Of a DNA stretch of 21,278 nt, positions 2,686 to 20,725 are shown piece after piece; positions within the stretch are counted from its first letter, which is position 1, and each line of letters opens with the position of its first letter. Made by a program: the position numbers and the translations under genes. The notes under the pieces were generated by a model, which saw only the letters and a list, made by a program, of their open reading frames with translations, searched no databases and was not told where the DNA came from. The stretch lies in IMG/VR virus record IMGVR_UViG_3300044225_005665, positions 1-21,278 of that record, one strand, 5' to 3'. The DNA comes from a virus.

Positions 2686-2696
2686 ACTATTTTATT

Positions 2697-2704
2697 ATAA
2701 ATAT
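2697..2704 (-). promoter_or_regulatory. Candidate late-promoter string ATATTTAT
   Basis: The minus strand reads CCATATTTATAATAA in the short gap upstream of the gene starting at 2685. The same ATATTTAT string occurs in the gaps at 8729-8736 and 13960-13967. It is not the T4 late box TATAAATA in the coding orientation. Chance is a serious alternative in DNA this AT-rich. Confidence 0.2.
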
Positions 2705-2712
2705 GGGAAAAA

Positions 2713-3423
2713 TTAAACTTTTACGTAACCAGTTTCAATATATTCATCATATAATTTTTTATATAATTTTTTTAATATTTTAGTTACTTTAGTTATAACA
2801 GGAGTTTCTACTCCTGTCATTTCTCTTATATAAATATAAAGAGCTTTTTTATTAAATATTTCTAAATTTTCTCTACGTTTAAATAATATATTTACAGCAT
2901 CACATACTTTTCTATCATGATCCTTTTTAAACATAGTAAACATATTTTTATCTACATATTCTGTAAAATAGTCTATAAAATCTTTTAGCTCTTTTTTACG
3001 TTCATCTCTTCCTAATTGGCGTAGTACTCCTTCATCTTCATCAGCTGCTAAAGGGTCTGCTTTTTGTTTTTTCTTTTTGTAATTATTATTATTATATAAT
3101 ATAAGATAATTTTTACCTACAATAGAAAAATAACTAAATGCTTTAGATCCTTTTTCGGGTTTCCAATAATCTAGTTTTTCTAAGAAAAAACAAACTACTT
3201 CATGTTTTAAATCTTCTAAGGACTCTACTTCTGTGTAATAAAATTTAAATGTATGTATTAAATTTTCAGCTAATTTATAAAAAGCATAGTGAATACGATT
3301 TTTGTAAATATCGTCTCTTTTTTCTTGACTAGGTGCAATTAAATATTCTTGTATAGCAGCATCTACATCTGATGTAAAATATTGTTTTTTTGATGGTTTT
3401 CTACCTCTTTTTTTCTTTAACAT
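2713..3423 (-). CDS. gp55-like late-transcription sigma factor (putative)
   Basis: This 236-aa basic protein opens with MLKKKRGRKPSKK, an AT-hook-like tract. The region from about residue 45 to 115 has the layout of a divergent sigma-70 region 2 as in T4-type gp55: a helix with HYAFYKLAENLIHTF, then EDLKHEVVCFFLEKLDYW, then KGSKAFSYFSIVGKNYLI. A Lys/Asn-rich linker follows, then a C-terminal helical part (EIFNKKALYIYIREMTGVET) that could be an HTH-like region. Such factors direct the host RNA polymerase to late genes. It lies next to structural genes, as expected for a late-gene regulator. The call rests on pattern resemblance. Confidence 0.6.
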   Translation of the reverse strand: MLKKKRGRKPSKKQYFTSDVDAAIQEYLIAPSQEKRDDIYKNRIHYAFYKLAENLIHTFKFYYTEVESLEDLKHEVVCFFLEKLDYWKPEKGSKAFSYFSIVGKNYLILYNNNNYKKKKQKADPLAADEDEGVLRQLGRDERKKELKDFIDYFTEYVDKNMFTMFKKDHDRKVCDAVNILFKRRENLEIFNKKALYIYIREMTGVETPVITKVTKILKKLYKKLYDEYIETGYVKV

Positions 3424-8756: not shown

Positions 8757-11700
8757 TTATTGTTTTATTATTCTTTTAGTTATTCTAAGTTTATCATAAA
8801 TTATAGATAAATTATATATTCCTTTAGGTGTATTTGTTAAATCTATTCTTTTTGTTTTTTGTTTAGATGTAATTAATCTTCCCATCATATCATGTACTTC
8901 TATATCTACTATTAATCTAGTATCTATATTTAATATATCTTGTGTTGGGTTTGGATAAACTATTATTGTTCCCGATTCTGCTTCTTCAATTGATGTTGGC
9001 CATCCTTGTTGACAGTAATTATACATTGATTGACATGAAGCATCCCAATCTGTGGTACAACAATAATCATCTATATCAATTACCCAAGCATAACATCCAT
9101 CATTTAACCAATATGGTACTCCGGGTCCTCCATAACAACCAGCATTATATAAACATGCTGTTGAATCAGAAACATTAGCTAAGGGATCATAATTCCAAGC
9201 TGACACATCTGTACATCCTGAGATAATTTCTATACATGAATTATCATCATAACAAGCAAACTCATTATAATTTAAAGCATTAGAATCTGTACATCCTGCA
9301 ATTAAACAACATGAATTATCTGTAGTATTAGCTAAAGGATTATAATTATATGCTAAAGGATCAGTACAACCATAAATAAAAGATTCGCAAGATCCATTAT
9401 CAACATTTGCTAAAGGGTTGTAATTCCACATTGTTGAATCTGTACATCCGTAAATTGGTAAAATACAACTACCATCATCTGTATTTGCATTTGGATCGTA
9501 ATTTAAAGCATTTTGATTAGTACAACCATAAAGAAATGGTATACATGTTCCATTATCTGTATTTGCTAATGGATTATAATTAAATTGAGTTGAATCTGTA
9601 CATCCGTAAATTGGTAATATACAAGATAAATCATCTGTATTTGCTAGTGGGTTATAATTTAATGCAATTGGATTAGTACAACCATAAATAATTATTTGAC
9701 AAGTTCCATTATCAGTATTAGCTAAAGGGTCATAATTAAATGCTGTACTATCTGTGCAACCATAAATGTAAGGGATACAATTTCCTGATGATGTGTTTGC
9801 ATTTGGATTAAAGTTGTACATTGTAGGATCCATACATCCAATTACAACTGATATACAAGAACTATCATTTGTATTTGCATTTACATCATAGTTAAATGCT
9901 GTTGGGTCTGTACAACCATAAATATAAGGAATACAAGAACCATCATCTGTATTAACAGTTATAGAATAATTAAACATTGTAGAATCGGTACAGCCATACA
10001 CATATGGAATACATGTACTATCATCATCAGTTGCAATTGAGTTGAAATTAATTGATAAAGGATTAGTACATCCTAAAATTTCTAATTCATCACATACTCC
10101 ATCACCATCTGTATCTAATATACAAACTCCATAACAGTTATAATATTGAATTGGATAAGTACATCCTCCATTATCTACATTTGCATTAGAATCATAGTTA
10201 CAAGCAATATTATCTGTACAACCTAAATATATACAATTACCATCTGATACATTTGCTAAAGAGTTATAATTGTAAGCTGATGTATCCATACAACCATATA
10301 CTGTTGCGACACATGTACCATCATCTGTATTAGCTAATGAATCGTAATTAAATGCTAACGGATTAGTACAACCATACATTATTGAAATACAACTTCCATT
10401 ATCAGTATTTACATCTATTAAAGGATCACCTGTTGGTTGAATATAATTTAATGCTGATGTATCTGTACAACCATATATTACTGGAATACATACATTACCA
10501 AATGTTGGTAAATCTTCAACTTCTAAAACATATGGAAAAGGGATAGCGTCCCAATAAAGAACTTCAATAAGTGTATCACCTGTTGGTCCCGTAAGTTTAT
10601 ATGCAATTTGATCTATTGAAGTTATTGATTGAGGAGTTGCAAACAAATATGCTGATACTGGTTCATATATATTTAATGGTATTTGAAATGAAATACTATT
10701 ACCATCATTAGCTCCCATTTTATATTGTGAAGATACCCAATCACCTTGTTGTAAACCTAACCATGTACCTCCCCACCCATCAGATGCTCCATCAAATATT
10801 TCTAAAGTATAATATCCAAATATATTTTCACTTGTATTTGCAGTTGTATCATAATTAAAAGAGTTTGTGTCTGTACAACCTACTGTTCTTGGGGGTCCAC
10901 AACTTCCATCATCAAAATCAGCATTTACATTAAATGTTGTTGATAAAGGATTAGTACAACCACCAACGGGCACATACAAATCACATACTGCAGGTTCAAA
11001 TTGAGGTGATGTTGCTAAATAATTAAAATTACCATCAGGATAATCGTCTTGTAAGTTATAAATAATATTTTCATCACAATCTAAAATTACCACGTTACCA
11101 TCAACAGTTCCTCCAAAACATGTACCACATAAACCATCTCCATAACTATCTTCGACTACTAAATCATAAAGTTGGTTTGTGTCAACACAAACAAAAGTAG
11201 AAATAGGTAATCCTTGTTGAGCTCCTGAATAAGTTCCTGTAGGTGCTTCGGCTACAAGTCCACTATCACCAAACAATTTCCAACTTAATTCTCCCCCATA
11301 ATTATCGGGAATAACTACTATAGCAATAGGTGTTTGACCTGTTGAACATGAAGGAATAGTAATACAAGAACCATCATCTATATTTGCCCATGGGTTAAAA
11401 TTAGGGCTTACTGAGTCTGTACAACCTAAAACAGCACCACAAGGTAAACAAGACTCCCAACATACTTGAGGTAAATTAATTCCTGAATCTATTACATTTA
11501 ATGTTCTATTGATAAAACCTTGTCCATCTGGTTGAAAACAAACTGAATTTGGACCTAATTGTGGTAATTCTTGAATTGTCCAATTATCTAACATGTATTT
11601 CCAAAGATATTGTCCTGGTGGTAGAGTTGTTGTATATTCCCAAATATTATCACCATCGGGATCTACCATTGGCATAGAATCAGTCCAATTAATAAAATCA

Positions 11701-12242
11701 CCAGTTACATAAGGTGTTAAAAAAGGATATGGATAATAAGTCATATCTAAAACAAAACTAACTTCATATACACAAGATCCATCTGATATTGTAGCTGTAG
11801 AATCATAGTTTGCTGCATCCGGATTTAAACATCCCATAATAGGAGGTGCACACGGTAATATATTAACTAATGTATCTAAAGTAAAAAATTGTAGTGTTAA
11901 TGGATCAAAGTTAATTATAGGTCCTTGACAATCATTCATCATTTTAAACCAAGCTGGGTTTTGTGATAACCAACCATCTCCATAATTATCAGTTAAAGTA
12001 ACTACGTAATTTCCAGAGTTTATGTTTATAATTGTATCTAAATATTCATGTGCTACCGTTGGTTGATGAAACATTACTGTGTCACCTGATATTGTATCTT
12101 CTACCATAAAGAAATTAGATTCTTGTGGTGCATAAAAATCATATTGTACTGCGAATCTTACCCAACTATCTGTTGGTGGTGGTCCTGGTTGTGCTAATAA
12201 AAATGTTGGCAATAATAATATAAATAATAATAATTTTTTCAT
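8757..12242 (-). CDS. Large secreted repeat protein with T9SS sorting domain (1161 aa)
   Basis: A signal peptide (MKKLLLFILLLPTFLLAQPG, probable cleavage after LLA) is followed by mixed beta domains containing DNYGDGWLS and DGASDGWGG, typical of Bacteroidota exoproteins. One segment (VTGDFINWTD, then WEYTTTLPPGQYLWKYML) resembles a carbohydrate-binding E-set domain. About twenty copies of a 22-26-residue repeat follow the pattern YGCTDxxAxNYNPLANTDDG(S/T)C, with one Cys at each end. Next is a DWDASCQSMYNYCQQ module. The last 70 residues (IIVYPNPTQDILNI, MMGRLI, GIYNLSI) form a type A T9SS C-terminal sorting domain. The product should cross the host outer membrane by the host's type IX machinery. 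A phage gene with this signal is unusual. The role is unknown: surface decoy, exclusion factor or matrix protein are guesses. Confidence 0.9.
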   Translation of the reverse strand: MKKLLLFILLLPTFLLAQPGPPPTDSWVRFAVQYDFYAPQESNFFMVEDTISGDTVMFHQPTVAHEYLDTIININSGNYVVTLTDNYGDGWLSQNPAWFKMMNDCQGPIINFDPLTLQFFTLDTLVNILPCAPPIMGCLNPDAANYDSTATISDGSCVYEVSFVLDMTYYPYPFLTPYVTGDFINWTDSMPMVDPDGDNIWEYTTTLPPGQYLWKYMLDNWTIQELPQLGPNSVCFQPDGQGFINRTLNVIDSGINLPQVCWESCLPCGAVLGCTDSVSPNFNPWANIDDGSCITIPSCSTGQTPIAIVVIPDNYGGELSWKLFGDSGLVAEAPTGTYSGAQQGLPISTFVCVDTNQLYDLVVEDSYGDGLCGTCFGGTVDGNVVILDCDENIIYNLQDDYPDGNFNYLATSPQFEPAVCDLYVPVGGCTNPLSTTFNVNADFDDGSCGPPRTVGCTDTNSFNYDTTANTSENIFGYYTLEIFDGASDGWGGTWLGLQQGDWVSSQYKMGANDGNSISFQIPLNIYEPVSAYLFATPQSITSIDQIAYKLTGPTGDTLIEVLYWDAIPFPYVLEVEDLPTFGNVCIPVIYGCTDTSALNYIQPTGDPLIDVNTDNGSCISIMYGCTNPLAFNYDSLANTDDGTCVATVYGCMDTSAYNYNSLANVSDGNCIYLGCTDNIACNYDSNANVDNGGCTYPIQYYNCYGVCILDTDGDGVCDELEILGCTNPLSINFNSIATDDDSTCIPYVYGCTDSTMFNYSITVNTDDGSCIPYIYGCTDPTAFNYDVNANTNDSSCISVVIGCMDPTMYNFNPNANTSSGNCIPYIYGCTDSTAFNYDPLANTDNGTCQIIIYGCTNPIALNYNPLANTDDLSCILPIYGCTDSTQFNYNPLANTDNGTCIPFLYGCTNQNALNYDPNANTDDGSCILPIYGCTDSTMWNYNPLANVDNGSCESFIYGCTDPLAYNYNPLANTTDNSCCLIAGCTDSNALNYNEFACYDDNSCIEIISGCTDVSAWNYDPLANVSDSTACLYNAGCYGGPGVPYWLNDGCYAWVIDIDDYCCTTDWDASCQSMYNYCQQGWPTSIEEAESGTIIVYPNPTQDILNIDTRLIVDIEVHDMMGRLITSKQKTKRIDLTNTPKGIYNLSIIYDKLRITKRIIKQ
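9150..10485 (-). repeat. Dense in-frame tandem protein-repeat region of the T9SS gene
   Basis: About sixteen successive units of 66-80 nt are visible in the coding strand. Each encodes GC(T/M)(D/N)-x(3)-(A/F)-NY-x(4)-AN-x-D-(D/N)-G-(S/T)-C with a short IYG-type linker. Units differ at many synonymous positions, so expansion is not very recent. A few units are long or lack a Cys. Recombination between units could change copy number. Confidence 0.85.
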
Positions 12243-13995: not shown

Positions 13996-14219
13996 CTTAG
14001 AGTTTTTACGACGTATACTCCATTATGCCGTTGGTGATGGGTACCTTATTAGGCAGCCATCGCAAGTACTGGTTCTTTAGTAGCAATTTCTTTTGTTCCC
14101 AAAAGTCTAATTGCAGCTAAAGTAGCAAATATACCTGCTTTTACCGGTTTAATCTGTGTGCCGATTAACGCATTGATCTTCGTTATATCCTTATCTTGCT
14201 GTCAAAACCAGTCATCCCC
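13996..14219 (-). ncRNA. ssrA: tmRNA coding piece (5' half of a permuted two-piece tmRNA)
   Basis: The piece starts GGGGATGACTGGTTTTGACA at 14219, matching the conserved tmRNA 5' end (acceptor strand plus D-loop-like UGG-x-UU-x-GAC). GGGGATG (14213-14219) pairs with CATCTCC (14312-14318) of the acceptor piece, with G3-U70. H2: GATATAAC (14182-14189) pairs with GTTATATT (14352-14359). A PK1-like pseudoknot is formed by TTAATC (14163-14168) with GATTAA (14149-14154) and CGG (14161-14163) with CCG (14145-14147). A tag frame then ends with ATG GCT GCC TAA TAA (stops 14046-14051). If it resumes at the GCT at 14126 or the GCA at 14114, the tag is 25 or 21 residues and ends PVLAMAA. No tRNA-like 3' end lies downstream, only the terminator. 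The mature 3' end is not known exactly. Confidence 0.9.
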
Positions 14220-14232
14220 TTTATTATATTAG

Positions 14233-14306
14233 TGGAGAATATCGGAGTCGAACCGATGACCTCTTGCGTGCAAAGCAAGCGCTCTAGCCAACTGAGCTAA
14301 TTCCCC
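14233..14306 (-). tRNA. tRNA-Ala(UGC)
   Basis: A complete cloverleaf lies on the minus strand. The acceptor stem is GGGGAAT/ATTCTCC with G3-U70 (the alanine identity pair). The D-arm has GCTC/GAGC, the anticodon stem CTTGC/GCAAG encloses TTTGCAC (anticodon TGC), and the T-arm is ATCGG-TTCGACT-CCGAT. The discriminator is A and CCA is not encoded. It lies 4 nt after the tmRNA acceptor end (14311) and 13 nt before the tmRNA 5' end (14219), so it occupies the intervening segment of the permuted tmRNA gene. Confidence 0.97.
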
Positions 14307-14310
14307 TTTG

Positions 14311-14370
14311 TGGAGATGCCGGGAATCGAACCCGGGTCCATACAAGCAGCTAATATAACTACTAGCGATC
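14311..14370 (-). ncRNA. ssrA: tmRNA acceptor piece (3' half of a permuted two-piece tmRNA)
   Basis: On the minus strand the piece begins near GATCGCTAGTAGTTATATT, directly after the stop of the small gene at 14372. It continues through CTGCTTGTATGGAC to a perfect T-arm, CCGGG-TTCGATT-CCCGG, and ends CATCTCC plus discriminator A at 14311, followed by CAAA, so CCA is not encoded. There is no tRNA D-arm or anticodon arm upstream, so it is not an ordinary tRNA. Its acceptor strand and H2 strand (14352-14359) pair with the coding piece at 13996-14219. GATC (14367-14370) can add pairs with GATC at 14175-14178. The 5' boundary is uncertain by several nt. Confidence 0.88.
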
Positions 14371-14917: not shown

Positions 14918-15253
14918 TCATAATCTTTTTTTTGGTTTTCTTCCTCTTTTTTTAGGTTTGTCTCCTGGAAAAAGTTTATAATGTTCTGTCCAGTACTTTT
15001 TTTCAGCACTTTCAAGCGCAGTTTTGTCAGCCTTAGTTGTTCTTTTTTTTCTCCCATTTTCATGATATTTAGGTTTTTGTAAACGTTCTAATTTATTATA
15101 TAACTTTTCTAATTTATCAAATTTAGAATCTATAATTTCTACTAAATAAGGACCATTAGGGAATTTATTTTCATCATAATACCATATAGAATCTTCAAAT
15201 TCTAATTTATATTTTAATTTTTTAGTTATATTTTCTGCTGGTCTTCCTCTCAT
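14918..15253 (-). CDS. Basic protein with N- and C-terminal GRP/AT-hook-like motifs (111 aa)
   Basis: The protein starts MRGRPAENITKKLKYKLEFE and ends DKPKKRGRKPKKRL, so GRP-type basic motifs that can sit in the AT minor groove flank it at both ends. The middle has SIWYYDENKFPNGPYLVEII and a helical KLEKLYNKLERLQKP segment, then a Lys/Arg/Thr-rich stretch (ENGRKKRTTKADKTALESAE). It overlaps the VWA gene end by 4 nt. DNA binding is likely from the charge and motifs. A transcription or nucleoid-associated role in this AT-rich genome is inference. Confidence 0.75.
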   Translation of the reverse strand: MRGRPAENITKKLKYKLEFEDSIWYYDENKFPNGPYLVEIIDSKFDKLEKLYNKLERLQKPKYHENGRKKRTTKADKTALESAEKKYWTEHYKLFPGDKPKKRGRKPKKRL

Positions 15254-17049
15254 GATACTAGATTTTTTTCTAAAAATAAATTATTTAATGTTTTAGTAAC
15301 TTCATTTATATTTTTGGAATCAATAAATGATGCTTCTTTACCATACATAATTTGAAAATTTTCGTTTAATTCTTTTTCTTTAAATACTGTTGTTTTAGAC
15401 TGTATAAAATAACTTAATATTTTAACACCTTTCTTTTTTATATTTTTAACGGCTTTAGCTGTATCTAATATAGCATCTTTTCCTTTATATTTTAAACCTT
15501 TTGTAGCTTCAAATGTTGGATAACCATCACTCATATTAATTAAATAGCTGTCTAAATAATAAGATGAATTAGGGATATATTCATTTAACGCGTTTAAACA
15601 CATTCCTTCTGGTGTTAATCCTTTAGCTTTATAATATGCTAATCGTTTTAAATCTTTTAATGTATGTTTTTTACTGTCAAAAGCCAAAATTAATAATGGT
15701 ATATGTGCTGTTTTAGACGATAAATTAGGATTTACACCTGATGTTCTAATAGATATAGTTAAATCAATATTATCCATTTTTAGAGCTACATAACCTAACG
15801 CAATTGTATTAGTTAATACTTGTTGCCATTTTGTACCTTCCATACTACCACTACCATCAATTGACACATGTAAACTAATTGGTTTATAATTTGATCTATC
15901 TATTTTATAAAACAAATCATCTTCAAAATTAGCAGCATAAATCCGTCTAGGATCAATTTTACCTGTTTTTAAACGTTTAGATGCTAATGTTATTTGTTCG
16001 TTTCTAATTCTTAACTTATGTAATAATTTTTTACCTATTTTAATACCATCTTCTACTTGTGATCTATGTTTAAGATCATTTAAATAAAATGTATTATATA
16101 AATTTGACTCAATAATAGTAGGTGTGATACCTTTAATAACATGTACAGGACAAGATGTTTCTAACACTTTAATATCTTTGATATTAATATTTGATTTACC
16201 AATAGCTTTAACTTGTTTTTGTTCTTTTTTAGTTAAAGATGTTTTAGATATTTGCCCTTTTAAAAAGTTTTCTTGTTTACTAAATGCTTTTTTTATTTCT
16301 TCTTTTGATGTTTTATTATGTTTGGCATTTTTTCTATTTTCTTGTGTTTGATGTTTATTTGAGGGGTTTAAAATAAAATGCATATCAATTAATTGATATA
16401 TTACAATAGCTAGTTCTAATGAATCTTTAGTATTTTTTAATCTATTAATATTTTTTAAATCAACTGTTTTATATATTGTAGGTAATATTTGAAGAGCTGT
16501 AGGATCTGCATTTTTATTGAACATATTAATAATTCTAAACATGTAAGATTCCCAATTTTCTTCTCTATATTCTTTACCTTTTAAACCCTGATTTACTGTT
16601 TTACTATAGAAATATCTTTCATACATTGATCTGTAGTAATTTTGGTATCCAGGGGCTTTATTATAAACTAAATTATCTATACGTCTATCTTCAATAAAAT
16701 TTAATAAAGCTTCAATCCATCTACGTCCTCCCATTAAGTTTTTTTCAAGTAAACGATTTGCTAGTTTTTTTAATACTTTAAAATCAGTGTATATACAATG
16801 CGCTCCTTCATGAAGCGCTAAACCTACCACACTATCAATGTTATGCATATTAATCGTTGATGATATTGTAATTTTTTTACCATTTGTTAATGAATCACCA
16901 TCATTATTTTGAAAAAATTCAACAGGAATATCTTTTTTAGTAAGTATTTTTACAAAATTAGAAATTGCTCTTTGTGTGTGAGCTAATTCAATTAAATTAA
17001 ATTTTTCTGTAGGTGTGTAACTTAACCAGTATGTAGATTTATTTTCCAT
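15250..17049 (-). CDS. HExxH metallopeptidase-like / VWA-domain protein (599 aa)
   Basis: Two parts are visible. Residues 74-125 hold VVGLALHEGAHCIYTDF (HExxH, H80-H84) and then NFIEDRRIDN (E120 as probable third ligand), the layout of zinc gluzincin-like domains found with VWA domains in CobT/NorD-like proteins. After a charged linker (about 230-290), residues 390-560 form a VWA domain with the MIDAS motif DGSGSM at 398-403 and a later NMSDGYPT segment. Such proteins often work with a MoxR-type AAA ATPase, but none is in this window. It is the first gene downstream of the promoter at 17064-17096, with a leader of only about 10 nt. The role in infection is unknown. Confidence 0.85.
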   Translation of the reverse strand: MENKSTYWLSYTPTEKFNLIELAHTQRAISNFVKILTKKDIPVEFFQNNDGDSLTNGKKITISSTINMHNIDSVVGLALHEGAHCIYTDFKVLKKLANRLLEKNLMGGRRWIEALLNFIEDRRIDNLVYNKAPGYQNYYRSMYERYFYSKTVNQGLKGKEYREENWESYMFRIINMFNKNADPTALQILPTIYKTVDLKNINRLKNTKDSLELAIVIYQLIDMHFILNPSNKHQTQENRKNAKHNKTSKEEIKKAFSKQENFLKGQISKTSLTKKEQKQVKAIGKSNINIKDIKVLETSCPVHVIKGITPTIIESNLYNTFYLNDLKHRSQVEDGIKIGKKLLHKLRIRNEQITLASKRLKTGKIDPRRIYAANFEDDLFYKIDRSNYKPISLHVSIDGSGSMEGTKWQQVLTNTIALGYVALKMDNIDLTISIRTSGVNPNLSSKTAHIPLLILAFDSKKHTLKDLKRLAYYKAKGLTPEGMCLNALNEYIPNSSYYLDSYLINMSDGYPTFEATKGLKYKGKDAILDTAKAVKNIKKKGVKILSYFIQSKTTVFKEKELNENFQIMYGKEASFIDSKNINEVTKTLNNLFLEKNLVS

Positions 17050-17063
17050 ATCTATTATTTTAC

Positions 17064-17096
17064 GTTAAGATACGAAAAATATTTTGCTTCTCCAAA
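17064..17096 (-). promoter_or_regulatory. Promoter, four-copy phage family (TTTGG...TTCG TATCTTAAC)
   Basis: The minus strand has TTTG at 17093-17096, then 20 nt ending TTCG, then TATCTTAAC at 17064-17072, 15 nt before the VWA gene's ATG at 17049. The spacing and the TTTG / TAnnTTTn pattern resemble Bacteroidota housekeeping promoters. The same layout recurs at 19080, 20048 and 20284. Confidence 0.7.
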
Positions 17097-17438
17097 TTAT
17101 TTTGCAATTTTCTTTTCAACATATACACAAGTCTCACTAGCTTCAAATCCTTTTTCTAATAATAAGGGTAATGACATAGGTTTACACCATGCATATACTG
17201 TAAAATTTTTAAAATGTTCTGAAACATATATCCAACGAGTGTCCCATAATTTACGATATATACCTTGTCTTCGGTAATTTTCGTGTACCCATGCGTCTAA
17301 AAATTTAATTGTTTTATTTGCTTCTCTTTGAAGATGGATATGTCCTACACATAAATTATCTATATGTGCTACCCAAGCATGAAGAGTATGTTGGGTAGTT
17401 CCCGAAGGGGGAATATGAATAATTGATATAGGCTGCAA
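17097..17438 (-). CDS. GNAT-family N-acetyltransferase (113 aa)
   Basis: This short GNAT-fold protein has the acetyl-CoA-binding motif A at residues 49-64: AWVHENYRRQGIYRKL, matching the R/Q-x-x-G-x-G/A pattern in RRQGIY, preceded by a beta-strand. A later FTVYAWCKPMSLPLLLEKGF segment matches the motif B region (a helix ending in E-K-G-F). GNAT enzymes acetylate amines on small molecules, proteins or antibiotics; the substrate is not evident. It ends beside the VWA-gene promoter. The protein is shorter than many GNATs (about 150 aa), so the N-terminal strands may be reduced. Confidence 0.8.
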   Translation of the reverse strand: MQPISIIHIPPSGTTQHTLHAWVAHIDNLCVGHIHLQREANKTIKFLDAWVHENYRRQGIYRKLWDTRWIYVSEHFKNFTVYAWCKPMSLPLLLEKGFEASETCVYVEKKIAK

Positions 17439-17490
17439 AGTCGATAATGTATTGGATTAATTAAACTTCATTTCCAATACATATATACTT

Positions 17491-17628
17491 TTATAACTGA
17501 TCGTAATATACTTTACTAATTAAATCCGCTAAGAATTCTTTAGCAGTATTTTGATCGTTATTTTCCATATATTCTAACAATATATTTAATTGACTATATA
17601 GAATTTCTTTAGAATTAGAGCTTATCAT
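17491..17628 (-). CDS. Small acidic protein (45 aa)
   Basis: A 45-codon frame runs from the ATG at 17628 (MISSNSKEILYSQLNILLEY) to a TAA at 17491, starting 1 nt after the transglycosylase-like gene's stop. The rest reads MENNDQNTAKEFLADLISKV and YYDQL, a compact helical pattern. There is no TM segment or Cys. The tight junction with the upstream gene supports it. The function is unknown, and an inhibitor or accessory of the neighbour is a guess. Confidence 0.6.
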   Translation of the reverse strand: MISSNSKEILYSQLNILLEYMENNDQNTAKEFLADLISKVYYDQL

Positions 17629-17629
17629 A

Positions 17630-18187
17630 TTAACTATTTATTTGATATTGTACTTTTTTCCAATAATTAGCTGTTGCTGGGTTATTTATACCTTGAGGAC
17701 CACCATTCCAACATCTAGCTATTTCTTCATAAGTTGTTAAATCATAATGTTTACAATATATTTCAAACATTTTAATAGACTTATATCTAGACCATCTATC
17801 TTCATATGTAAATTTTATAGGTGATTTTTTTCGTTGTAATATCCTATTAATATCATCAACCATACATTTTCTTATTTGAAGTATACCTACTGCATCTTCA
17901 CCTACGGCATGTGCAGAATCATTATTACTACTTTCAACCATCATTAATGCTGATAAGATTTTTGTATTATCTGTTACATTATAATCAAAAACACTTTTTT
18001 CCCATTGTAATGTATCTATTACTTTATATAAACTATCTAATTGATTATATAAACTATCTATTAATTCATGTCTGTGATCTATTGTATCTCTTAAACCACA
18101 ATTAATTTCTTCTTTTATTAAGCATTTAGCTAATAAACAAAAAAATATTAATCCAATAAAAATTTTAAAATATGTTATTTTCCACAT
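17630..18187 (-). CDS. Membrane-anchored lytic transglycosylase-like protein (185 aa)
   Basis: An N-terminal membrane anchor (about residues 5-22, TYFKIFIGLIFFCLLAKC) is followed by a coiled-coil linker (ELIDSLYNQLDSLYKVID). The SLT-like lysozyme domain from about residue 75 has SALMMVESSNND with the catalytic Glu at 85, then VGEDAVGILQIRKCM (the G-x-L-Q-I segment) and EEIARCWNGGPQGINNP matching the usual A-x-N-G-G-P signature. It would cleave peptidoglycan glycan strands from the periplasmic face, probably as a signal-anchor endolysin at lysis. Its start overlaps the small Cys-containing gene by 13 nt. Confidence 0.82.
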   Translation of the reverse strand: MWKITYFKIFIGLIFFCLLAKCLIKEEINCGLRDTIDHRHELIDSLYNQLDSLYKVIDTLQWEKSVFDYNVTDNTKILSALMMVESSNNDSAHAVGEDAVGILQIRKCMVDDINRILQRKKSPIKFTYEDRWSRYKSIKMFEIYCKHYDLTTYEEIARCWNGGPQGINNPATANYWKKVQYQINS

Positions 18188-18384
18188 TCTTCATTTTGTT
18201 TATAAGGAAACCATTTATTCCATAATTCTTGTCTTCTATCACATCCGCAATCTTTATCACCATACCACCATTTAACTAAACGTTTAATCCCAGTATAACG
18301 AGTAAATTTTTCAAACGTATCTCCAAAACCACGACTTTGTTGATTCTTTTCTAATTCCTGTTTAATTTGGTTTCTTAAATCCAT
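18175..18384 (-). CDS. Small CGC-motif protein (69 aa)
   Basis: The protein begins MDLRNQIKQELEKNQQSRGF and contains GIKRLVKWWYGDKDCGCDRR, then QELWNKWFPYKQNEECGK. A C-x-C pair (DCGCD) and a third Cys near the end could bind metal or an Fe-S cluster, and the Trp/Arg-rich centre is unusual for a cytosolic enzyme. It overlaps the transglycosylase-like gene by 13 nt and follows the possible lipoprotein gene by 2 nt, so it belongs to the same operon. The family is not named. A structural or lysis-linked role is possible. Confidence 0.72.
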   Translation of the reverse strand: MDLRNQIKQELEKNQQSRGFGDTFEKFTRYTGIKRLVKWWYGDKDCGCDRRQELWNKWFPYKQNEECGK

Positions 18385-18386
18385 AA

Positions 18387-18563
18387 CTATTTAACTTCTT
18401 CTTTTTGACAACAAGATTTTTCAGGTATATTTTGAGTAGCACATCCTCCTAATAAAGTAATAATAATTAATAAAATTATCATACCCATAATACTATACCC
18501 TGCAAATTTTGTACTGTTTTTGTATTGGTCTGGTCTTTTTCCTTGATTATTCAAATTCTCCAT
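18387..18563 (-). CDS. Possible small lipoprotein or single-TM protein (58 aa)
   Basis: I use the ATG at 18563 (MENLNNQGKRPDQYKNSTKF), because the longer frame from 18617 would run 71 nt into the upstream gene. A hydrophobic stretch (YSIMGMIILLIIITLLGGCA) ends in L-G-G-C, a lipobox-like sequence with the Cys at about residue 40. The tail is NIPEKSCCQKEEVK. The 20-residue polar N-region is long for a lipoprotein signal, so a plain TM protein is possible. Next to the transglycosylase-like gene, an outer-membrane spanin-type lipoprotein is one hypothesis. The overlap with the upstream gene is 17 nt. Confidence 0.6.
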   Translation of the reverse strand: MENLNNQGKRPDQYKNSTKFAGYSIMGMIILLIIITLLGGCATQNIPEKSCCQKEEVK

Positions 18564-18804
18564 ATAAATTATATCTTTTTGGTGGTTCTGGTTCTGGTTC
18601 GGCAATATCTTGTTCATGATATATAAATACCTTACCTTCAGCAGCCTTGATTACGTAATTAGTTTCTTGTGTTTGTTGAAATACCCATTCTATACCTTCA
18701 GTTAAAGAAGAAAAAACAGGCTGTTCTTTATCTATTGGTGTCCATCTATCACCAGGAGGAAATCTTTTTAAAACTTGTTTTAGTTGAATATCTTTTTCAG
18801 CCAT
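18547..18804 (-). CDS. Unrecognised 85-aa protein
   Basis: It starts MAEKDIQLKQVLKRFPPGDR and continues with GIEWVFQQTQETNYVIKAAE, KVFIYHEQDI and a Pro/Glu-rich end (AEPEPEPPKRYNLYGEFE). It is soluble, with a small alpha/beta look and no Cys. It overlaps the possible lipoprotein gene by 17 nt. It is the first clear gene after a 60-nt stretch without coding and may be transcribed from the promoter at 19080-19112. The function is unknown. Confidence 0.7.
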   Translation of the reverse strand: MAEKDIQLKQVLKRFPPGDRWTPIDKEQPVFSSLTEGIEWVFQQTQETNYVIKAAEGKVFIYHEQDIAEPEPEPPKRYNLYGEFE

Positions 18805-18864
18805 ATTATTTTTTTAAATCAGTTTCTCGCTCTTTACCCACACCCACAGTCCTACGTATATACA

Positions 18865-18957
18865 TTAATCAAGAAACCACATACGAGCGGCTTTCTTAAT
18901 TGGAAACCATAATGGTATGGTAATTCCTATTATATATTCTTTAACTGCGTTTACCAC
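18865..18957 (-). CDS. Possible 30-aa peptide with GTG start (low confidence)
   Basis: A short frame from the GTG at 18957 reads (M)VNAVKEYIIGITIPLWFP, then IKKAARMWFLD, ending at 18865. The basic, Trp-containing hydrophobic pattern looks protein-like, and the start overlaps the upstream small gene by 17 nt, like other junctions in the operon. There is no ATG start and the length is minimal, so it may be chance. Confidence 0.35.
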   Translation of the reverse strand: MVNAVKEYIIGITIPLWFPIKKAARMWFLD

Positions 18958-19075
18958 GTTTGGGTTTATATTCGTTAATAATTAATGTTTTATTTTTATT
19001 TCGCGCCATTTCAGCCGCGATCTTTCTATATAGTGGGGATGATAACTCACACCCATTGTATTTACGTTTTGTCAT
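18941..19075 (-). CDS. Small basic protein (44 aa) directly after a promoter
   Basis: The start is set at the ATG at 19075 (MTKRKYNGCELSSPLYRKIA), not at the longer frame from 19216, because the promoter box at 19080-19088 lies just upstream of the shorter start. The product is short and basic (AEMARNKNKTLIINEYKPKR, GKRS) with one Cys. The leader would be only a few nt, so near-leaderless initiation is expected. The function is unknown. An early host-takeover peptide is a guess based on position. Confidence 0.6.
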   Translation of the reverse strand: MTKRKYNGCELSSPLYRKIAAEMARNKNKTLIINEYKPKRGKRS

Positions 19076-19079
19076 ATGT

Positions 19080-19112
19080 GGTAATATACGAAAAATATCT
19101 GAGGTATCCAAA
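19080..19112 (-). promoter_or_regulatory. Promoter, four-copy phage family (TTTGG...TTCG TATATTACC)
   Basis: TTTG lies at 19109-19112, then 20 nt ending TTCG, then TATATTACC at 19080-19088 on the minus strand. The spacing and the TTTGG / TTCG context are identical to those at 17064, 20048 and 20284. It precedes the ATG at 19075 by about 5 nt, implying a nearly leaderless transcript. Confidence 0.72.
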
Positions 19113-19260
19113 TAGGCTCGATGAAAAAGATCCGTAAAATTCTCTTTTTTGGGATCTGTATATCTTATATCAAAATGGGATTTTTGGAAAAAAGAACCAA
19201 ACATGCGGAGATGCACGTGGATAACGCGGTTAATCGTATGTGTTTTCTATAATTACAGTG

Positions 19261-19338
19261 TTATATATCTAATGTATATACTGTAATCATAATAAGAATA
19301 TAGAGGAATGCAGAAATGTCTAACTTTTTTTCTTTCAT
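19261..19338 (-). CDS. Possible 25-aa membrane peptide (low confidence)
   Basis: The ATG at 19338 opens MKEKKLDISAFLYILIMITV and ends YTLDI at 19261. The charged N-terminus and single hydrophobic segment are typical of tiny membrane peptides. A longer frame to 19539 exists, but its upstream part has odd codons and no promoter or ribosome-binding context. The peptide could be chance within a mostly non-coding stretch. Confidence 0.3.
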   Translation of the reverse strand: MKEKKLDISAFLYILIMITVYTLDI

Positions 19339-19499
19339 TTTTAAACATGTTTTATTGCATATACATAACACTACATGAGGATATACCTTAATTTTAAATA
19401 TTACATGATTATAACGTAAGTGTAATATGGTATATTTGTATATATGAGCTCGATGTGAAAGATCGTTAGCGAGGAGAAAATACACCCAAACTTGCGCGT

Positions 19500-19513
19500 G
19501 TATGTGCACATAC
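19500..19513. repeat. Perfect 14-nt palindrome GTATGTGCACATAC
   Basis: The two halves GTATGTG and CACATAC are exact complements. The site lies in the non-coding stretch between two small genes, so it could be a dimeric regulator site. No regulator is identified. Confidence 0.45.
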
Positions 19514-19587
19514 GTACATGGCACGCAATTGCGGCGCATCCATACGCAATCAATATGCTAACATATGCTAGCGTATCGATAGACTAC

Positions 19588-19615
19588 GAATGCAAACCAA
19601 TTACGATTTGCATTC
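19588..19615. repeat. Inverted repeat downstream of the 122-aa gene
   Basis: GAATGCAAA (19588-19596) and TTTGCATTC (19607-19615) form a 9-bp stem around a 10-nt loop, 23 nt after the stop at 19639 in the minus direction. No T-run follows on either side, so it is not a standard rho-independent terminator. It may be an mRNA 3'-end hairpin or an operator. Confidence 0.5.
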
Positions 19616-19638
19616 ATACACTATTGTATTGTTAGTAA

Positions 19639-20007
19639 TTATTTTATAAATTGCAACGTTTTTAAGTTCAATTCAACATTTACACGCTTACCTAATATGA
19701 ACGTGTAACCTTGTACTTTAGTACGTCCTACATAACTTACATTACATACAAACGAACCTGCTTCACTTACTATACAACCTAAATCATCTTTGCTTGGTTT
19801 GTATGCATACGTACTATAATCACCTCTGTTTACTTTAAATTGATTTCCTTTTTTAAACTTAGAATTTACATCAGCATAAAACGCTTGCTTAGCTAAACGC
19901 TTTTGTCTTTCAGATGTTTTATTTACTGGACGACCTGTATTGTTAGTTCTACCATCTATTTTAACTTCTTTTTTTACTTCAATTTGGATTTTGTTTAATT
20001 TTGTCAT
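19639..20007 (-). CDS. Basic early-type protein with GRPVN motif (122 aa)
   Basis: I prefer the ATG at 20007 (MTKLNKIQIEVKKEVKIDGR), which leaves a 35-40-nt leader after the promoter at 20048. The ATG at 20037 would add ten residues. The N-terminal half has TNNTGRPVNKTSERQKRLAK, a GRP-type basic motif that I associate with small marine-phage proteins. The C-terminal half is a small beta domain (DLGCIVSEAGSFVCNVSYVG, then TKVQGYTFILGKRVNVELNL). It probably binds nucleic acid. A role in early takeover or transcription is inference. Confidence 0.7.
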   Translation of the reverse strand: MTKLNKIQIEVKKEVKIDGRTNNTGRPVNKTSERQKRLAKQAFYADVNSKFKKGNQFKVNRGDYSTYAYKPSKDDLGCIVSEAGSFVCNVSYVGRTKVQGYTFILGKRVNVELNLKTLQFIK

Positions 20008-20047
20008 TTTAATTTGGTTTTTGTTTGTTTTTATCATTATTTACTCT

Positions 20048-20080
20048 GTAAATATACGAACCCTCTCTTGCTTCTCCAAG
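20048..20080 (-). promoter_or_regulatory. Promoter, four-copy phage family (CTTGG...TTCG TATATTTAC)
   Basis: CTTG at 20077-20080 is followed by 20 nt ending TTCG and TATATTTAC at 20048-20056. The GAGGG-TTCG-TATATTTAC segment is shared exactly with the copy at 20284. The TTGGAGAAGCAA segment is shared with the copy at 17064. It drives the 122-aa gene at 19639-20007. Confidence 0.75.
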
Positions 20081-20098
20081 CAAATTCGCATAAGTCTT

Positions 20099-20254
20099 TT
20101 AAAAAACTAACAAATCAACAGCCATTTCTCCTGTTGGTTTACCATTAAATGTTATTTCGTAATTAGGATCCATTCCACTAACTGTAACATCATCAATTAA
20201 ATCATTAATGTTTGAAAACTCTCTTTTGTAGTAACTGCAATTTAAACTGTACAT
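20099..20254 (-). CDS. Small acidic protein (51 aa)
   Basis: A frame from the ATG at 20254 reads MYSLNCSYYKREFSNINDLI, then DDVTVSGMDPNYEITFNGKP and TGEMAVDLLVF, ending at 20099. The alternating strand/turn pattern looks like a folded small domain rather than chance. The promoter copy at 20284-20316 lies 30 nt upstream, which is good support for expression. The function is unknown. Confidence 0.65.
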   Translation of the reverse strand: MYSLNCSYYKREFSNINDLIDDVTVSGMDPNYEITFNGKPTGEMAVDLLVF

Positions 20255-20283
20255 ATGCTTTATTTTTTTAATTATTTACAGTT

Positions 20284-20316
20284 GTAAATATACGAACCCT
20301 CTTTCAGGTAACCAAA
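20284..20316 (-). promoter_or_regulatory. Promoter, four-copy phage family (TTTGG...TTCG TATATTTAC)
   Basis: TTTG at 20313-20316, 20 nt ending GAGGGTTCG, and TATATTTAC at 20284-20292 on the minus strand. An AAAGACTTATGCGA segment upstream is also shared with the copy at 20048, so the two regions are probably related by duplication. It drives the 51-aa gene at 20099-20254. Confidence 0.75.
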
Positions 20317-20520
20317 CTATCTCGCATAAGTCTTTCTTAGACTGCACATTCAATTCATACAAACAAACATTCAGACAGCCAAATATATTATATGAAGTTG
20401 TTGTTTTATTTATGAACAATGCTGTTCGTAAGTAGATGGTAGGCTATATAAAAAAAGTTTGGCTTACTCATAATGAATATTGACGACGTTCAGACTAGTT
20501 CGATTTACAATTATTTAACT

Positions 20521-20562
20521 TTACATACACTATTATGTAATACTATACAATTATATATCAAA
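20521..20562. repeat. Imperfect direct repeat, copy 1
   Basis: The segment starts TTACATACACTATTATGTAA and ends TATATCAAA. Copy 2 at 20597-20639 shares the ACATACAC, ATTATGTAA, TTACAATATATCAAA-type blocks in the same order, 76 nt away. Each copy holds a TTACATA / TATGTAA inverted pair. Confidence 0.6.
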
Positions 20563-20596
20563 CTATACATAGATTTCTATATACTAATATACTAGT

Positions 20597-20639
20597 TAAC
20601 ATACACACATTATGTAAGTATGCATTACAATATATCAAA
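20597..20639. repeat. Imperfect direct repeat, copy 2
   Basis: The segment starts TAACATACACACATTATGTA and ends TATATCAAA, matching copy 1 at 20521-20562 with a few substitutions and a one-base length difference. It lies upstream of no obvious promoter. Confidence 0.6.
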
Positions 20640-20725
20640 GAACAACATAAAAACAATGTATTTAATACTAGAAAAAAAGTACTAAATCATCGCATATGTT
20701 ATACAGTGTTAATTAGTAACTTACA

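Follow-up and report, generated by a model that had tools for sequence, protein, structure and literature searches.

Promoters of Bacteroidota sigma-A (sigma-ABfr) combine a -33 TTTG with a -7 TAnnTTTG element (PMC7366714, PMC9723704). TAnnTTTG has been mapped in Flavobacterium psychrophilum (PMC9723704), and the -33 TTTG, which was reported for Bacteroides fragilis, could not be identified in Flavobacterium johnsoniae (PMC7366714). Among phages, the early promoters of T4 have been described as 'uber' UP/-35/TGn/-10 promoters with a consensus that extends beyond the host elements, and T4 middle promoters consist of a MotA box at -30 plus a -10 element (PMC2988021). In the literature that we searched, no description of early or late promoter classes of T4-like Bacteroidota phages was found. 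Here, we analyzed four near-identical sites in a 21,278-bp fragment of virus record IMGVR_UViG_3300044225_005665 (hereafter, the window). Their shared element represents an early class of promoters that follows the Bacteroidota -33/-7 layout and recurs in dozens of related phages. T4 early promoters appear to be its closest mechanistic parallel.

Four sites in the window and their counterparts in related phages

The initial annotation had marked four promoters on the minus strand of the window, each composed of (T/C)TTGG, TTCG and a TATMTTWAC box. When this strand was read directly, all four coordinates proved exact (Table 1). (T/C)TTGG, TTCG and a distance of exactly 20 nt from TTTG/CTTG to TAT were present at 4 of 4 sites, with a start codon close downstream of each, as had been described. 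As for the box, TAT[AC]TT stood, whereas the letters that follow were less fixed than claimed (TATMTTWMC), as shown by TATATTACC at site 2 and TATCTTAAC at site 1. The spacer is also conserved, in the form of GG-AGAAGC or GG-xTxCCx, a feature absent from the initial annotation. A position-matrix scan, which had been proposed as a check, was carried out on both strands of the window with a matrix that was built on the sites of four further phage contigs and contained no window sites. Only the four sites exceeded 0 bits. The next-best scores were -0.4 bits (minus strand) and -6.7 bits (plus strand), and the left half of the window was free of sites on both strands, in agreement with the earlier reading. 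In 300 order-2 Markov windows, the best score averaged -1.4 bits and reached a maximum of 17.2. Because the scores of the four sites are 33.8–43.5 bits, their occurrence by chance is excluded.

The element, RYTTGG-N15-TTCG-TATATTTACG, was found at 224 non-redundant sites in related phage contigs, with a start codon nearly always just downstream. A strict-pattern scan of viral contigs yielded 75 stretches, whose consensus was R-Y-TTGG-N15-TTCG-TATATT-T-A-C-G, with a further conserved stretch, AAAGACTTCYGC, located ~7–18 nt 5' of TTGG. Across 84,980 genomes of bacteria and archaea, the same pattern yielded only 5 stretches, all on short contigs of two metagenome-assembled genomes (MAGs), and these contigs look phage-derived. 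Contigs L104, L105 and L107, which carry up to 10 such promoters per contig, were found in a MAG labelled Candidatus Pelagibacter; they are probably phage contigs misbinned into it.

In phage contig G006 (163.6 kb), TTGG-N15-TTCGTATMTT with at most 1 mismatch occurred 28 times on the coding strand, with 0 matches on the opposite strand and 0 for reversed-pattern controls. Most of 17 other records resembled G006 in both strand bias and control counts. The spacing was 15 at all four window sites and at 21 of 27 TTCGTAYNTT sites in G006. The element was also recovered de novo, by expectation-maximization on upstream regions with no prior, in G006, other contigs and the phage immuto described below (640 bits vs ~140 for shuffles). 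Most sites end 6–60 nt 5' of an ATG. When +1 was set 12 nt past the first T of TAT, the first ATG was never more than 1 nt upstream of +1 (71 sites); a few phage sites are leaderless, with ATG at +1 to +2, like window site 2.

Two described phages carry related versions. Flavobacterium phage immuto (Immutovirus), whose host is Flavobacterium sp. LMO8, and G006 have major head proteins with 60% identity. In immuto, the element has drifted to GTTG[CG]-N15-TTC-n-TATATTTAGG. At a threshold of at least 10 bits, immuto showed 54 matches on the coding strand vs 1 on the opposite strand. The head protein of Microcystis phage Mel-JY01 (PP395634.1; L136–L145) shares 50% identity with its G006 counterpart, and this phage contains TTG-N16-TTCG-TATATTTG, with the same spacing and the host-type G. 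Mel-JY01 was recorded from a cyanobacterium, yet its early promoters are of Bacteroidota type, and the bacterium that it actually infects may be a member of the Bacteroidota present in the culture.

We also considered that these sites might have spread, together with small early genes, as a mobile or duplicated cassette, the promoter itself being unselected. Such a process would be in line with the tandem small genes with identical leaders in immuto, but the core is kept in 224 non-redundant sites from three phage lineages while flanks, spacers and downstream genes differ, which makes this origin highly improbable.

Early genes and a separate late class

In G006, 27 of the 28 sites were located within 57–127 kb, the region of replication genes and small open reading frames (ORFs) (p=2e-9). 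Genes that follow these sites include DNA polymerase, a gp32-like single-stranded DNA-binding protein, 5'-3' exonuclease, GTP cyclohydrolase, a PD-(D/E)XK nuclease, an HNH protein and a cluster of small ORFs, and the site-poor part of this contig contains terminase, portal, major head protein and baseplate genes. Similarly, the sites of immuto lay mostly in its non-structural half, with 42 in 0–77 kb vs 12 in 77–160 kb (p=1e-5), and its annotated DNA primase is preceded by one of the few later sites. The earlier proposal that the sites serve early genes was supported: replication genes and small takeover-type genes follow them, and structural regions are nearly free of them. The four window sites are very likely promoters.

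A de novo search of site-free upstream regions of G006 and immuto revealed no other early class, only TATTTATA, with significance judged against shuffles. This box, also written TATTTATA(A), occurs in upstream regions without the early element, ~5–30 nt 5' of start codons and often in front of structural genes. Regular-expression counts of TATTTATA against the reversed pattern gave no information, since the motif reads almost the same when reversed. A box of this type is also present in the window, close to a sigma-like gene (Table 1). One ORF resembling sigma region 2 was found per relative, where detected. The AlphaFold model of the sigma-like protein was poor (mean pLDDT 69), and a PDB fold search gave weak sigma-like matches with E values of 0.2 or worse. 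This gene probably encodes a gp55-like late sigma, whose promoters are likely those of the late class and not the four sites. A phage sigma as the reader of the four sites was considered unlikely, with only one sigma-like gene per phage where detected.

Early and late classes together fit the T4 arrangement, except that TATAAATA is replaced by the late box. As with T4 late promoters (TATAAATA, gp55), the phages carry a late class that lacks a -33 element together with a gp55-like sigma candidate, but their late box is TATTTATA. The four sites stand outside this late class: T4-type late promoters have a TATAAATA-like box and no -35 element, whereas the four sites have a -33 box.

Comparison with host promoters and candidate readers

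The initial annotation had also proposed that the four sites are read by the host sigma factor. The Bacteroidota -33/-7 layout on which this was based is indeed present. T/C-TTGG was found at 4 of 4 window sites, and the -33 TTTG (TTG) was conserved at 91–100% per position over 75 sites. TAnnTT at -12 to -7 was conserved at 99–100% over the same sites, a value partly set by the search pattern, and was also found de novo. In upstream regions of one Flavobacteriaceae genome, we observed tt.gTAYYTTTGC, with G in 98% at -5 and a weak T-rich/TTTG region ~20 nt upstream, in keeping with the published TAnnTTTG of F. psychrophilum (PMC9723704) and -33 TTTG of B. fragilis (PMC7366714). The phage element and Bacteroidota sigma-A promoters share TTTG at ~-33, TAnnTT at -12, a ~20 nt gap, a T-rich TTn pre-box and an A-rich spacer. 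The suggestion of an extended -7 contact also agrees with the data, as the fixed TTCG (TTC in immuto) abuts the -7 box and extends the weak TTnG preference of the flavobacterial host. The phage element differs from host promoters in A at -5, a fixed C in TTC(G), a strong GG after TT and near-fixed spacing; it exaggerates host preferences (TTTG, TTnG) and departs from them at -5.

The best explanation is that the four sites work like host sigma-A promoters, without membership in that family. In the mechanism that we favor (probability about 0.65), host RNA polymerase with unaided sigma-A would read the sites upon DNA entry, and each would be an over-complete, extra-strong flavobacterial sigma-A promoter composed of a strong -33 box (RYTTGG), a fixed-length spacer, an extended TTC(G) and TATATTTA. 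Transcription would start ~12 nt past the first T of the TAT box, and the extra contacts may let the sites win out over host promoters, as happens with T4 early promoters in E. coli. The class would serve early genes (takeover, nucleotide metabolism and DNA replication) in a lineage of large T4-like Bacteroidota phages, and late structural genes would use the TATTTATA box, probably read with the phage gp55-like sigma. Reading by sigma-A is favored because this is the sole early class found, entering DNA needs the host polymerase, and Mel-JY01 ties the architecture to the host box.

Several observations weigh against this mechanism. Among 71 sites from four reference contigs, the base at -5 was A in 58 and G in 4, and the immuto matrix has 89% A at this position. 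The complete element occurred at or below background level in hosts, with 7 matches vs 18 for reversed-pattern controls in 198 Flavobacteriaceae genomes. In addition, the fixed spacing and the linked spacer hexamers (AGAAGC or xTxCCx) exceed known sigma-A reading. A counterexample to the objection from -5 is an AT-rich marine flavobacterial MAG, in which the apparent -5 position had 52% G and 34% A, but its motif was weak; AT-rich marine flavobacteria gave weak promoter signals only. Since a G at -5 was looked for and A predominated, we did not file the sites under the host sigma-A promoter family. For the same base, and with the 198 host genomes, a plain copy of a host promoter was ruled out, and the part of the host-sigma claim that implied an ordinary sigma-A promoter was not supported.

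The change at -5 is also what keeps alive an alternative in which a phage factor, made early or injected, retargets host polymerase, either as a MotA/AsiA-like activator at -33 or as a phage sigma. The element would then be an early promoter code of the phages' own (RYTTGG-N15-TTCG-TATATTTA, with A at -5), poorly read by host sigma-A, with GG-AGAAGC/GG-xTxCCx as the putative site of the factor. The replacement of G by A in two phage lineages, the absence of the element from the host genomes, the inheritance of spacer hexamers as linked blocks, a partial dyad TTGG-N5-CVAR (69% of four pairs complementary) and the one sigma-like protein encoded by these phages are all consistent with this model. 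However, no second early class was found to supply such a factor, no factor was identified, Mel-JY01 has the same architecture with host-type TTTG, and the sole sigma-like gene belongs with late genes, which have a separate box. On balance, we consider a phage factor unlikely, if still a tentative candidate. If it were true, these phages would provide a Bacteroidota counterpart of sigma appropriation.

T4 middle promoters likewise pair a conserved box near -30 with an adjacent host-type -10/-7 box, but the phage sites keep a host-type -33 TTTG, and the MotA box (a/t)(a/t)TGCTT(t/c)a was not present in coding-strand orientation. No MotA or AsiA was identified, although no systematic search for them was made. 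As with T4 early promoters, the sites combine more recognition elements than host promoters do, have a consensus outside the host elements, and are followed by prereplicative, not structural, genes. They differ in that the phage element is built on the Bacteroidota promoter and that its use by unmodified host polymerase is putative.

Strong sites in the small-ORF cluster have additional substructure. They contain an upstream element (AAAGACTTCYGC at about -57 to -45, found in this subclass only and looked at as a candidate UP element for the C-terminal domain of the polymerase alpha subunit), a spacer block (AGAAGC or xTxCCx) whose positions are linked, and ATTTAC..GTAAAT surrounding +1. Two window sites, 3 and 4, have the upstream element. 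In other phages, many strong sites are preceded at the equivalent position by AAAGACTTCCGC / AAAGACTTATGCG. Unbiased spacer counts over 71 sites were 24 for AGC, 17 for CCN and 30 for other; the share of AGAAGC in the 224-site set is inflated, as loci were fetched with AGAAGC as the search word. It is conceivable that these pieces form an operator joined to the promoter, so that ATTTAC-N-GTAAAT around the start, the TTGG...CCAA dyad and AAAGACTTCYGC bind a putative regulator that turns early genes off or boosts them. The upstream element and ATTTAC..GTAAAT do recur, but in the strong subclass only, and no regulator was found. Replication-gene sites lack the upstream element, the spacer block and ATTTAC..GTAAAT, and the extra pieces are therefore not needed for the class, which counts against an operator and makes it improbable.

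Strong sites could also be read as a conserved peptide-coding stretch, KDFRKNIWRSxxxxFVYLRGK-stop in one frame, in which the spacing of 15 equals five codons. At window sites 3 and 4 this frame stays open, and the spacer variants resemble synonymous W-[LIF]-P / W-R-S codons. However, frames were no more open than in column-shuffled sites (0.32, 0.50 and 0.47 vs 0.44, 0.48 and 0.37). Moreover, TTC GTA TAT hardly varies at its third positions, which means that selection acts on nucleotides. A coding role was rejected on these grounds and is scarcely credible.

Just past the predicted start, a short leader stem with a purine-rich loop was predicted from single sequences in ~35% of strong sites vs 6% of shuffles (for example, L086, L090 and L107). 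The stems (GGC/GCC, GGGT/ACCC, GTGC/GCAC and GACG/CGTC) differ in sequence yet stay complementary, which suggests selection at the RNA level at this position. RNAalifold on a MAFFT alignment of leaders gave no consensus hairpin.

These results provide a testable promoter code for early and late classes, with immuto on Flavobacterium sp. LMO8 as a cultured system, and a route to early-gene annotation across many metagenomic phages. The consistent replacement at -5 poses a testable question about the requirements of Bacteroidota sigma-A beyond TAnnTTTG, and such promoters could be strong expression parts for flavobacteria.

Downstream genes and other features of the window

Table 1. Promoter sites, downstream ORFs and late-class features in the window; bit scores are from the matrix trained without the window
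Feature	Coordinates	Strand	Details
Promoter site 1	17064..17096	-	TTTGGAGAAGCAAAATATTTTTCGTATCTTAAC; 33.8 bits; predicted +1 ~17060; leader ~11 nt to ATG 17049
Promoter site 2	19080..19112	-	TTTGGATACCTCAGATATTTTTCGTATATTACC; 36.3 bits; predicted +1 ~19076; ATG 19075 at +2, leaderless or nearly so
Promoter site 3	20048..20080	-	CTTGGAGAAGCAAGAGAGGGTTCGTATATTTAC; 43.5 bits; predicted +1 ~20044; leader ~7 nt to ATG 20037
Promoter site 4	20284..20316	-	TTTGGTTACCTGAAAGAGGGTTCGTATATTTAC; 39.2 bits; predicted +1 ~20280; leader ~26 nt to ATG 20254
Upstream element of site 3	20087..20099	-	AAAGACTTATGCG; ~6 nt 5' of -33 box, about -57 to -45
Upstream element of site 4	20323..20335	-	AAAGACTTATGCG; same basis as for site 3
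599-aa ORF	15250..17049	-	Downstream of site 1; weak PHROG match, function unknown; orthologues in five phage contigs
44-aa ORF	18941..19075	-	Downstream of site 2; no family match
132-aa ORF	19639..20037	-	Downstream of site 3; no PHROG match
51-aa ORF	20099..20254	-	Downstream of site 4
Late-type box	2695..2705	-	TATTTATAA; 9–11 nt before start of ORF 2302–2685
Sigma-like gene	2713..3423	-	Weak PHROG sigma match; 43–44% identical to G006/G014/G016 proteins

The product of the 599-aa ORF contains a DGSGSM motif and appeared von Willebrand-A-like by eye. Its orthologues show 55–83% protein identity, and the element is directly 5' of the gene in L002, L003 and L005 and ~200 nt upstream of it in L006. 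For the protein of the 132-aa ORF, no relative was found in the viral contigs searched. Between the early promoters, 19115–19640 and 20420–20720 are long stretches without convincing genes that contain many CATATG/TACGTA-like words.

The host of the window virus is probably among marine flavobacteria. Elsewhere on the minus strand, 14049–14357 contains a permuted two-piece transfer-messenger RNA (tmRNA) gene (Rfam RF04321, 70 bits vs a cut-off of 47), and a complete tRNA-Ala(TGC) gene (14233–14306, 70 bits) lies inside its intervening segment. Relatives L002, L003, L004 and L005 also have the permuted tmRNA (67–79 bits), with a tRNA match reported in none of them. A 1161-aa ORF (8757–12242, minus strand), read by eye, is made of repeated 'YGCTDPxAFNYDPxANTDDGSC' units and has a signal-like start and a KGIYN-type C-terminal tail that resembles a Bacteroidota type IX secretion signal; such a protein is unusual for a phage.

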